Of a stretch of 64,000 bases of DNA, positions 58,828 to 62,803 are shown in pieces. Each line of letters starts with the position of its first letter. Within the stretch, counting starts at the first letter, position 1. The translations under genes were made by a program, and so were the position numbers. Source of the stretch: Roseibium sp. (lineage in GTDB: Bacteria > Pseudomonadota > Alphaproteobacteria > Rhizobiales > Stappiaceae); assembly GCA_017643215.1 (NCBI GenBank), contig JAEPNV010000004.1, positions 186,001-250,000 of the forward strand. The letters run 5' to 3'. The notes beneath the pieces were generated by a model. That model was not told the DNA's origin. It saw only the letters and a list, made by a program, of their open reading frames with translations, and searched no databases.

Positions 58828-60654
58828 ATGGCCAGGACGTATGAATTCGTGGACCACACATACGACGTGGTCGTCGTCGGGGCCGGCGGCGCGGGCTTGC
58901 GGGCAACGCTCGGAATGGCCGAACAGGGCCTTCGGACCGCCTGCATCACCAAGGTGTTTCCAACCCGCTCGCACACCGTGGCCGCCCAGGGCGGCATTGC
59001 CGCGTCCTTGCAAAACATGACGCCCGACAGCTGGGAATGGCACATGTACGACACGGTCAAGGGCTCCGACTGGCTCGGCGACACCGACGCCATGGAGTAC
59101 CTGGCCCGCGAGGCACCGAAGGCCGTCTATGAACTGGAGCACTACGGCGTGCCGTTCTCGCGCACCGAGGACGGCAAGATCTACCAGCGCCCGTTCGGTG
59201 GCCATATGCAGAATTTCGGCGAGGGTCCTCCGGTGCAGCGCACCTGCGCGGCCGCGGACCGGACCGGCCACGCGATCCTCCACACGCTCTACGGCCAGTC
59301 CCTCAAGAACAACGCCGAGTTTTTCATCGAGTATTTCGCCCTCGACCTGATCATGTCCGAGGACGGGGTCTGCCAGGGTGTGATCGCGTGGAACCTCGAT
59401 GACGGGACGATCCACCGGTTCGCCGCCAAGATGGTGGTGCTGGCGACCGGCGGCTATGGCCGGGCCTATTTCTCGGCGACCTCCGCGCATACCTGCACGG
59501 GCGATGGCGGCGGCATGATCGCCCGCGCCGGCCTGCCGCTGCAGGACATGGAGTTCGTGCAGTTCCACCCGACCGGGATCTATGGATCTGGCTGCCTGAT
59601 CACCGAAGGCGCGCGCGGCGAAGGCGGCTATCTGGTGAACTCCGAGGGCGAGCGGTTCATGGAGCGCTACGCGCCGTCGGCCAAGGACCTTGCCTCGCGC
59701 GACGTCGTCTCGCGCTGCATGACCCTGGAGATCCGCGAAGGCCGTGGTGTCGGCAAGAACAAGGACCACATCTTCCTGCATCTGGATCATCTGGATCCCG
59801 CGCTGTTGGCCGAGCGCCTGCCGGGCATTTCCGAATCGGCCCGGATCTTCGCCGGTGTCGATGTGACCAAGGATCCGATCCCGGTTCTGCCGACCGTCCA
59901 CTACAATATGGGCGGCATTCCGACCAACTATTGGGGTGAGGTGCTGGACGCCTCCGGCGAGCACCCGAACCGCATCCAGCCCGGTCTGATGGCCGTCGGC
60001 GAAGCCGGCTGCGCCTCCGTGCATGGCGCCAACCGGCTGGGGTCCAACTCGCTCATTGATCTCGTCGTCTTCGGCCGGGCCGCGGCGATCAAGGCCGCGG
60101 AAGTGGTTGATCCGAAGGAGGCCGTACCGTCCCCGAACGAGGCGTCCTGCGACAAGATCATGTCCCGCTTCGACGCCATGCGGCATGCCGACGGCGCCAC
60201 GCCGACGGCCGGCCTGCGCGACCAGATGCAGCGCGCCATGCAGGAGGATGCGGCCGTCTTCCGCACCCAGGAAACGCTGCAAAACGGCTGCCGGCGTCTT
60301 GATGACATCTGGAAAGGCATGTCCGATTTGAAAGTGTCCGACCGGTCGATGATCTGGAACTCCGATCTCGTCGAAACGCTGGAACTGGAAAACCTGATGG
60401 CCAACGCCATCACCACCGTCTATGGCGCGGAAGCGCGCAAGGAAAGCCGCGGCGCCCATGCCCGCGAGGACTTCAAGGACGGGCCGTTCGCCGGCCGGGA
60501 CGATGAGACCTGGCGCAAGCACACGCTGACCTGGGTGGACGACGCCGGCAAGGTCACGATCGACTACCGGCCGGTGGTCACCGAACCGCTGACGCCGTTC
60601 CAGCAGGGCGGCATCGACCCGGCCAAGATCGCCCCCAAGGCCCGGGTCTACTGA
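58828..60654 (+). CDS. sdhA: Succinate dehydrogenase flavoprotein subunit
   Basis: FAD-containing catalytic subunit of complex II, oxidising succinate to fumarate on the cytosolic face of the membrane. The 608-residue protein has [20 protein letters not shown] (FAD loop), and the covalent flavin His49 in [15 protein letters not shown]. The active-site parts [20 protein letters not shown] and [19 protein letters not shown] follow. ATG 58828 is 5 bases after sdhD. Unusually, sdhB does not follow directly. Confidence 0.98.
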
Positions 60655-60696
60655 CGGATCGGGCAAGGGCTGGAGCGCCACGCAGCGGAGAACGAA

Positions 60697-61053
60697 ATGG
60701 CCAAGATTGGTCACAATAGTGCGGGAGTTGGGTCAGTGTTTGCGATTGCATTTGATCTGGATACCGATACCCTCAAAAGGAGTTATCACAATCCATCCTG
60801 GCAAAACGCTTACAATGACATTGGGAAATTCTTGCGTGATCAAGGTTTTGACCGGCAGCAAGGTAGCGTCTACTTCGGTGGAGACAATGTAAATATGGTG
60901 ACGTGCCAGACAGCGGTTCAAAGACTGACGTTGGAATACGATTGGTTCGCACCATCTGTTCGCGATATCAGAATGCTACGGATTGAGGACAACAATGATC
61001 TGCAGCCGGCAATTGAACTCGCGTTGATGGCAAAGAAAATGGCCGGCGCCTGA
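60697..61053 (+). CDS. VapD-family endoribonuclease (Cas2-fold), orphan
   Basis: A 118-residue protein of the VapD family, whose Haemophilus and Helicobacter members are ribonucleases structurally related to Cas2. The family core is plain: FAIAFDLDTDTLKR (catalytic-type Asp20), NAYNDIGKFLRDQGF, QQGSVYFGGDNVNMVTC and WFAPSVRDIRMLRIEDNNDL. About 12 residues (MAKIGHNSAG) precede the domain; I associate such IGHNS starts with alphaproteobacterial phage and plasmid proteins. Composition is visibly A/T-richer than sdh genes, pointing to transfer. The 42-base gap upstream leaves no room for a VapX-like antitoxin. GCGGAGA precedes the ATG, so it is likely translated from the sdh transcript. Confidence 0.86.
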   Translation: MAKIGHNSAGVGSVFAIAFDLDTDTLKRSYHNPSWQNAYNDIGKFLRDQGFDRQQGSVYFGGDNVNMVTCQTAVQRLTLEYDWFAPSVRDIRMLRIEDNNDLQPAIELALMAKKMAGA

Positions 61054-61112
61054 GAGACACCAGTGCCTAACTTGGAGTGGAGTTTTCCTATTTTCTTGCA
61101 ACGGCTGAGAGC

Positions 61113-61964
61113 ATGACGAAATCTGCCGCCGCGACCCTGCACGATCTGACCTCTCCATTCGGTACCTATCCGGCCGAAGGCCTGGTCCGCATCGCCTGGC
61201 GGCTTGCCGATCGGCATGACCTGTCGCGCCGGCTGCGCAAGCGGCTGCGGTCGGTGGTCGCAAAGCTGTTTGACGGGCCCTATGACGCGGAGGCCGACGG
61301 CCTGAAGTTCCGGCTTTATCCGGGCCAGAATTACGACGACCGCAAGATCCTCGCCAAGGGGCGGTTGCCCGAGCGCGCCGAGCACGCGCTGCTGCGGCCC
61401 TATCTGCAAACCGGCACGGTGTTTGTCGACGTTGGCGCCAATATCGGCAGTTATTCGCTGTTTGCCGCCCGGGCGGGCGCTGAGGTCCTGGCGATCGAGG
61501 CCAATCCGGCGACCGCGGACAAGCTCTCCTTTAACCTTGCCGCCAACGGCCGTGAGAACGTGAAGGTGGCCGTGACCGCCGTCGGGGCAAAGGACGGCGC
61601 CTTGCCGCTGTGGCGCGAGCCGACCAATTGCGGCTTCGCGACGCTGGTTGAGGATCTCACGACGGGGGAATGGGCCGGTGATTGGTCCAAGGATCTGGTT
61701 CCGGTCCGCCCGCTGCGTGACGTCGTGGCGGAGCATGGCCTTGCCCGGATCGACGTGTTGAAGGTGGACGTGGAAGGGTTCGAGGACCGCGTCCTGCTGC
61801 CATTTTTACGGGCGGCGCCAAAGGCGCTTTGGCCGCGCGTGATCCTCATCGAAACCAACTGCCGGCCGCACTGGGCTGAGGACTGCCTGCCGGCGCTTTC
61901 GGCGGCCGGATACGCCCTGGCTGGTGAGACAAAAGACAACATGGTGTTTGAGCTCACGGCCTGA
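61113..61964 (+). CDS. FkbM-family methyltransferase
   Basis: A SAM-dependent methyltransferase of about 283 residues. [20 protein letters not shown] is motif [16 protein letters not shown], then [16 protein letters not shown] and VILIETNCR follow, the FkbM pattern. FkbM enzymes O-methylate sugars or small molecules, often at the cell surface; the substrate is unknown. I prefer ATG 61113 (GAGAG upstream); a GTG at 61077 is also in frame. It lies between the vapD-like gene and sdhB, and its base composition is like that of the sdh genes. Confidence 0.85.
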
Positions 61965-62020: not shown

Positions 62021-62803
62021 ATGGTTCAGCTGACGCTTCCCCGGAACTCCAAGGTGACGGACGGCAAGGTCTGGGAGAAACCCGACGGCGCGACCACCCT
62101 GTCGGAATACCGGATCTACCGCTGGAATCCGGATGAAGGCCGCAATCCCCGGGTCGACACTTACTATGTCGACCGCGACGACTGCGGCCCGATGGTGCTC
62201 GACGGGCTCATCTACATCAAGAACAAGATCGACCCGACGCTGACCTTCCGCCGGTCCTGCCGGGAGGGCATTTGCGGGTCCTGCGCCATGAACATCGATG
62301 GCACCAACACGCTCGCCTGCACCAAGGGCATGGACGAGATCGCCGGCGATGTCGTCAAGATCTATCCGCTGCCGCACATGCCGGTGGTCAAGGATCTGGT
62401 GCCGGATCTGACAAGGTTTTACGCCCAGCACCGGTCGATCGAGCCGTGGCTGAAAACCACCACGCCGACCCCGGAAAAGGAATGGCGCCAGTCGCACGAG
62501 GACCGGGCCAAGCTTGACGGCCTCTACGAGTGCATTCTCTGCGCCTGCTGCTCGACCTCCTGCCCGTCCTACTGGTGGAACGGCGACCGCTATCTCGGCC
62601 CGGCGATCCTGCTTCAGGCCTACCGCTGGCTGATCGACAGCCGCGATGAGGCGACCGGCGAGCGCCTCGATGACCTGGAAGACCCGTTCCGGCTCTACCG
62701 CTGCCACACGATCATGAACTGCGCCGAAGCCTGCCCGAAAGGCCTCAACCCGGCCAAGGCGATCGCGGAGATCAAAAAGATGATGGTCGAACGGCGGGTG
62801 TGA
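62021..62803 (+). CDS. sdhB: Succinate dehydrogenase iron-sulfur subunit
   Basis: Transfers electrons from SdhA to quinone in complex II. The 260-residue protein has [17 protein letters not shown] with Cys80, Cys85 and Cys88 for the [2Fe-2S] cluster, and [19 protein letters not shown] plus [16 protein letters not shown] for the [4Fe-4S] and [3Fe-4S] clusters. GGAG lies near the ATG. It is separated from sdhA by about 1.36 kb with two unrelated genes. A terminator follows. Confidence 0.98.

Follow-up and report, generated by a model that had tools for sequence, protein, structure and literature searches.

A putative VapD-family nuclease gene without a recognised linked antitoxin recurs between sdhA and sdhB in alphaproteobacteria

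Three partners of VapD proteins, VapX, VapY and VapW, are named in the parts of Gilep et al. 2025 (PMC11980593) on which we draw, where the remaining half of the homologues is described as having no specific association and Helicobacter pylori HP0315 (PDB 3ui3) figures as a stand-alone VapD; neither sdh nor succinate is mentioned in the main text of that paper. On the arrival of foreign genes, the parts of Oliveira et al. 2017 (PMC5635113) used here describe transfer hotspots with recombination at the flanking core genes, and remark that the integration of new genes inside operons is rare. VapDs residing in an sdh operon were not found in print in the open-licence PMC literature: queries joining VapD with succinate dehydrogenase, or with sdhA and sdhB, returned open-licence PMC papers on other subjects, judging by their titles, and no open-licence PMC paper was found for "virulence-associated protein D" in a Rhizobi context.

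The gene analysed here lies in a stretch of 64,000 nucleotides of Roseibium sp. DNA (the window), where the open reading frame at positions 60697..61053 of the forward strand encodes, from an ATG start, a VapD-family protein of 118 aa with predicted catalytic residues Asp20 and Ser57. The protein resembles the VapDs of Haemophilus influenzae VapXD (PDB 6zn8), VapYD and VapWD in its ferredoxin-like, Cas2-related fold, its predicted catalytic Asp and Ser and a family-profile match below the curated cutoff, whereas the locus differs from theirs in that no VapX-, VapY- or VapW-like gene was recognised, in an N-terminal G[HD]N tag and in its place within a housekeeping operon. HP0315 is the best PDB match, about 36-38% identical when the folds are aligned, the tag and the recurrent slot being found on the window side only. 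The slot between sdhA and sdhB is comparable to the core-gene-flanked hotspots, as far as these are described in the parts of PMC5635113 cited above, in that accessory genes turn over between conserved genes, no mobile-element gene having been seen beside the window copy, but it lies inside an operon and one gene family refills it. Phage proteins of GapR-like type (PF10073), which carry the N-terminal motif MxxIGHNSG, have a near-identical tag and differ by their unrelated DNA-binding domain and their viral contigs.

The NCBIfam profile for VapD, NF041506, matched the window protein over positions 3-89 of its 91 (E=2.6e-17), scoring 63 bits where the curated cutoff is 100, and in a sequence search VapD chains of the PDB matched it with E values down to 3.4e-14. 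An AlphaFold2 model computed from a 60-row alignment reached a pLDDT of 88, and the nine chains that Foldseek matched to it at E<=0.001 all come from entries of VapD, alone or with an antitoxin, with E values between 4.7e-08 and 2.1e-05 and a TM by target of 0.58-0.84; the modelled fold is ferredoxin-like, of the VapD type. Asp20 lies in an FDL motif and Ser57 in a QGS motif, both of which align with the solved VapDs, and we equated the two residues with the catalytic Asp and Ser named in the consulted parts of PMC11980593. Judged from these alignments, the protein is VapD-like with its predicted Asp/Ser site intact, and its nuclease activity is putative. With Cas2 it has in common the fold and a narrow pass of the Pfam model PF09827 (24.8 bits, cutoff 23.8), and PADLOC returned Cas2 models alone for the gene; Cas2 identity was nevertheless ruled out, because TIGR01573 gave 15.6 bits, below its cutoff of 24.5, and no Cas1 match was found in the window genome. 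No second VapD, which could have been a VapW-like partner, was detected in that genome (next match E=2.8), and the protein had no match in PHROGs. An earlier note, made from the sequence alone, had proposed a VapD/Cas2-fold protein, which was borne out by the PDB sequence and fold matches, next to the profile match below cutoff.

The gene order in the window is sdhA, vapD, fkbM and sdhB, all on the forward strand, with sdhC and sdhD, identified by eye, upstream of sdhA. The sdhA gene occupies positions 58828..60654 (its open reading frame is listed from 58762, the ATG at 58828 being our reading, and its stop codon lies at 60652-60654) and is followed by a 42 nt spacer (60655..60696) with a GGAG ribosome-binding-like site about 10 bases before the vapD start, which confirms what the note had said of the distance, the shared direction and a ribosome site of its own. 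Downstream of vapD are a gene for an FkbM-family methyltransferase (61077..61964; likely start, by our reading, the ATG at 61113), a trait of the genus, and sdhB (62021..62803). Between 60500 and 62100 no promoter-like site was found on either strand and no terminator-like site on the forward strand; the opposite strand has one terminator-like site, fewer than in shuffled sequences. No phage genes surround the window vapD, its neighbours being sdh genes and fkbM, and no mobile-element gene was seen beside it. As the note had also stated, no linked antitoxin gene was recognised beside vapD, either by position or by homology to the small open reading frames upstream of five plasmid vapDs, whose homologues were absent from the window and seen in plasmid loci only. 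The reverse strand has an antisense frame (61142 to 60918; 74 codons, SD-like site) that extends across both the 3' end of vapD and the beginning of fkbM and is probably due to chance.

The composition of vapD (47.9% GC, GC3 51.3%) is AT-richer than that of sdhA (65.6% and 85.3%) and sdhB (63.2% and 87.4%), in agreement with the note. The GC3 of vapD was below that of sdhB in 42 of 42 loci, with a mean gap of 17 points, and followed that of the host sdhB (r=0.70, 42 loci); the gap of 36 points in the window was exceeded in 1 of the 42. Among 45 genomes of the genus and 87 of the family, vapD was present in a single one, in both cases the window's own. The window vapD thus looks recently acquired, as had been suggested earlier; the note had named as the contrary outcome a gene of normal composition standing here in the greater part of the order, and the gene is in fact AT-rich and present in a few percent of genomes. 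Import of the whole sdh operon was ruled out, since the window SdhA is 87-93% identical to that of 20 congeners and the operon itself was not replaced. The fkbM gene, found just upstream of sdhB in 28 of 29 congener loci and, in a separate comparison, in the slot of 19 of 20 congeners, is older in the slot than vapD and is a genus trait, and the nearest congener (SdhB 97% identical; locus L027/L332) has neither gene, its slot measuring about 90 nt. In some congeners fkbM occurs in tandem (L028, L030, L031, L039), with slots of about 1.8 kb in L333, L335 and L336, and an FkbM-type gene lies between sdhA and sdhB in two other families too (L316, L317), besides the congener loci L333-L351.

To this picture of a lone gene in the sdh operon, drawn in the note, the searches of other genomes brought a correction: it stands as far as the missing antitoxin is concerned, but the insertion is no one-off, the same junction being refilled in other alphaproteobacteria. 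Among 297 genomes of the order, 20 had a VapD match at E<=0.001, and close homologues (at least 50% identity) occupied 12 places in 11 genomes, and 10 of these 12 places adjoin sdhA and/or sdhB; for one of them, L006, sdhB alone lies within the locus, and its named counterpart L081 has sdhA 3.9 kb upstream. In one other family of the order (394 genomes, a set that overlaps in part with the genomes behind the named loci), 19 places matched at E<=1e-8 and all 19 were behind sdhA, with vapD 38-750 nt after sdhA in 17 and decayed remnants in the other two (L415, L416). Downstream, 12 of the 19 also showed sdhB, and the other 7 had none within the flank of about 1.5 kb, such flanks being the reach of all genome-search loci, beyond which an sdh gene would go unseen. 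The named loci were the best 80 of 252, and are thereby biased toward the subfamily of the window; 47 of these 80 were sdh-linked, both genes lying within 5 kb in 40 of them, and 5 having just sdhA and 2 just sdhB. Linkage within this best 80 was found for 30 of 33 loci in Hyphomicrobiales, 6 of 6 in Rhodobacterales, 5 of 5 in Acetobacterales, 1 of 2 in Rhodospirillales, 4 of 8 from Alphaproteobacteria without a named order, 1 of 4 with unassigned titles, none of 15 in Sphingomonadales and none of 7 in seven other orders. The stop codon of vapD overlaps the start codon of sdhB in L057, L058, L059 and L115 (TAATG) and in L128 (TGATG). Taken together, mobility and site preference are well supported.

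The address has its limits. In a draw of 387 genomes from the whole class, matches at E<=1e-15 were found in 12 genomes (13 loci), and among the eight loci checked the only sdh-linked one besides the window was L138, that is, one of the five close homologues other than the window (L137, L138, L139, L141, L142) within about 1.5 kb; the remaining four had neither sdh genes nor the sphingomonad neighbours described below within the same distance. Of the 15 sphingomonad loci, 13 have one or more genes of a different neighbourhood in common, 11 loci containing an AddA-like helicase-nuclease cluster and 10 containing ArgJ (Pfam assignments made on L112 alone); the genes of this cluster are those which we take to be AddA and AddB. 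A second recurrent vapD address is thus near the AddA-like gene and/or argJ, in L112 and 12 other sphingomonad loci; a thioredoxin gene beside the sphingomonad vapD was dropped, having no Pfam hit. In two Eremiobacterota bins (L125, L135) a vapD homologue stands behind one and the same gene cluster, with a glycine cleavage P-protein gene in L125. Hyphomicrobiales show a strong preference for the sdh site, which can also be seen in Rhodobacterales and Acetobacterales; for the whole subfamily it is no rule. Because sphingomonads have the gene elsewhere and most of the close homologues in the class-wide draw show no sdh gene within about 1.5 kb, the function cannot depend on sdh linkage alone. 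Common descent within families could account for part of the slot preference.

At the sdh address one VapD lineage replaces another, the identities of SdhB and VapD correlating with only r=0.42 across 903 pairs. Aliihoeflea sp. 2WW and A. aestuarii are 97% identical in SdhB and 62% in VapD, and Shinella and a Rhizobium 92% and 55%; at the DNA level, the Aliihoeflea pair shares 87% of the leader between sdhA and vapD and 90% of sdhB, and 63% of vapD. By eye, several loci of Rhizobiaceae or Phyllobacteriaceae type, whatever their VapD lineage, resemble each other in this leader, with GAAAGGA...CGCC ahead of the vapD start, and the leader of the window copy is unlike the one shared by its closest relatives. 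Clustering the VapDs by single linkage at 70% identity gave six clusters and a singleton, a division that depends on the threshold (groups of 36, 9, 5 and 2 at 68%, 11 groups at 72%). Placed on an SdhA tree of 52 loci (SdhA of at least 350 aa, de-duplicated by VapD sequence, L415 and L416 excluded and one unclustered row uncounted), these clusters required 16 changes against a minimum of 5, and the well-supported branches of this quick tree (SH-aLRT) alone force 8 changes for the cluster of the window. The VapD tree was poorly resolved; alignment A2 was made without L117, four canonical VapDs and L075, whose matched stretch contains a stop. Part of the VapD family has a precise and recurrent genomic address in a central respiratory operon, where lineages were swapped, and pairs such as the two Aliihoeflea species offer natural comparisons for the role of an antitoxin-less VapD and for the entry of genes into operons.

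The predicted catalytic residues are widely kept, Asp20 in 50 and Ser57 in 49 of 52 sdh-linked copies, five of the 52 lacking one of the two. Fourteen of 19 pairs gave a finite dS, and in these the dN/dS ratio ranged from 0 to 0.28 (13 of them under 0.17), the other five being saturated; by this measure the related vapD loci are under purifying selection. Broken copies also occur, with an internal stop in L085, a split gene in L094 and the remnants in L415 and L416.

The tag MAKIGHNSAG of the window protein (60697..60726, forward strand) had pLDDT values below 50 at residues 1-3 and 5-10, that is, at nine of its ten residues, and is probably disordered. The note had taken it for an N-terminal extra of this protein and for a sign of phage or plasmid origin; the extension proved to be a trait of the subfamily. 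Every one of the 52 sdh-linked homologues examined, among them that of the window, has G[HD]N: in the 47 named copies (from the best 80 of 252) it read GHN in 42 and GDN in five, and it was GHN in the window, L003, L009, L010 and L011. Thirteen sphingomonad copies had GHN (11) or DHN (2), and among 20 other named loci the tag was found in 8, none of these being outside the alphaproteobacteria; it is missing from all nine loci assigned to other groups and from those canonical VapDs of the order whose sequences were inspected. The codons of the tag vary, so that it is kept as protein.

As to a plasmid origin, the plasmid matches listed (30 of 467) all begin their alignment at residue 6 or beyond; on the phage side, a near-identical tag does occur on phage proteins, but it is absent from the VapDs of 21 of 22 loci on virus-like contigs (some of these loci identical), the contig of the exception having a ParB_N gene. 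In viral contigs MxxIGHNSG was encoded in 26 stretches (L360-L385), compared to 12 for a permuted control, or about 20 versus 7 after near-copies were merged by eye. All 26 frames have at least 85 codons, compared to 3 of 12 control frames with more than 60; L362 alone has the motif in the interior of a longer frame. On visual inspection, GapR-like proteins make up 17 of the 26; ten picked for variety and profiled comprised 3 GapR-like (PF10073), 2 Major_capside (one just under cutoff), 1 DUF7173, 1 weak HTH_36 and 3 without a match. In 199 genomes of the order a similar pattern was found 8 times versus 2 in a reversed control, among the matches listed, and 5 of the 8, including the window's, start plausible genes; in the window genome, IGHN-coding stretches were not enriched (15 versus 13 in the reversed control). 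GHN as a general mark of phage N-termini was ruled out in this loose form by a test on 120 viral loci, with IGHNGGPP-bearing open reading frames set aside, in which it occurred 3 times near frame starts, compared to 2-5 for permuted tripeptides; the stricter MxxIGHNSG alone exceeded its control.

One reading of the tag, which we consider rather improbable, is that [I/V/L]GHN[S/R/G] would be a docking motif for an alphaproteobacterial host protein that phages use on GapR-like and capsid proteins and on others that look replication-like or terminase-like to the eye, and that the sdh-slot VapDs would be tagged so that a phage-responsive nuclease, produced continuously along with complex II, is held at the partner and released or activated when tagged phage proteins compete, making up a tag-sensing defence without an antitoxin. 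No relevant paper on IGHNGGPP, on the IGHNS tag (by titles) or on GapR with DUF2312 was found in the open-licence PMC literature, and the shared tag provides a biochemical handle on a phage-protein motif for which that literature yielded none.

The account of the locus that we prefer, and to which we give an even chance, is that of a VapD-family nuclease with a predicted catalytic site and no recognised antitoxin, circulating in alphaproteobacteria and repeatedly installed between sdhA and sdhB, above all in Hyphomicrobiales. DNA would enter by homologous recombination across the sdhA and sdhB flanks or within a resident vapD, and not via a recombinase. The gene, which has the same direction as its neighbours and no promoter-like site of its own, would be co-transcribed with complex II, and its product would be a nuclease dimer restrained after transcription by poor codon usage, by the tag or by an unlinked partner. 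Such a protein would act as a growth-restraining or phage-responsive nuclease instead of as half of a linked toxin-antitoxin pair; we infer a restrained, stress- or phage-triggered nuclease, phage infection as the trigger being suggested by the shared tag only. The gene may alternatively be passive cargo, a mildly selfish or neutral passenger of a permissive sdhA/sdhB junction with no tie to complex II or defence, an explanation that we find unlikely while counting it a serious one. Of 17 one-per-family genomes of the order with both sdh genes in reach, 8 hold other material of at least 400 nt in the slot, with various open frames, and so the slot may simply be permissive; the presence of fkbM in nearly all congeners and the patchy, sometimes decayed vapD fit with this. 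On the other hand, the purifying selection, the conserved catalytic residues and tag and the stop-start overlaps with sdhB suggest a kept function, and a permissive slot leaves unexplained why close homologues in the order are rarely elsewhere (2 of 12).

A hidden antitoxin, unlinked, encoded antisense or made of RNA, would turn the gene into part of a toxin-antitoxin system. According to the consulted parts of PMC11980593, its relatives in the VapD family are toxins that have VapX, VapY or VapW as partners, a gene of 82-89 aa lies just upstream of three of the five plasmid homologues inspected, those of Pseudomonas aeruginosa, Pectobacterium and Aeromonas, and the antisense frame overlaps the window vapD; yet no linked gene emerged from position or plasmid-frame homology, the genome has no second VapD, and about half of VapD homologues go without an associated protein in the same parts of that paper, so that we deem this arrangement improbable. 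The place inside the operon and the tight junctions would also suit an RNase that acts in cis on the sdh mRNA and tunes the SdhA:SdhB ratio, which is very unlikely given the sphingomonad copies away from sdh, the absence of the gene from most genomes of the order (20 of 297 with any match) and the non-specific RNase activity in vitro of VapDs from elsewhere, as reported in the portions of PMC11980593 cited. Least credible of all is an ancient gene of the sdh operon inherited vertically with massive loss and no transfer: the GC3 of vapD tracking that of the host sdhB and the similar leader in Rhizobiaceae-like loci speak for it, but it conflicts with the Aliihoeflea pair, with the GC3 of the window gene at 36 points under sdhB and with its presence in 1 of 87 family genomes, and the SdhA tree would already contradict it unless the clusters of this small protein were misassigned.

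Two minor observations concern other replicons. The plasmids of Pseudomonas, Pectobacterium and Aeromonas (L308, L309, L310) encode before vapD the product of 82-89 aa, 75% identical between the first and the third, which ends in an apparent helix-turn-helix and is a candidate antitoxin or regulator. The related motif IGHNGGPP is encoded in at least 120 viral stretches (L164-L283), in many unrelated frames that form one cluster of 47, another of 12 and many singletons; among the matches listed, 38 of 123 frames end within 36 codons of it, and a single one of 57 class genomes contained it.
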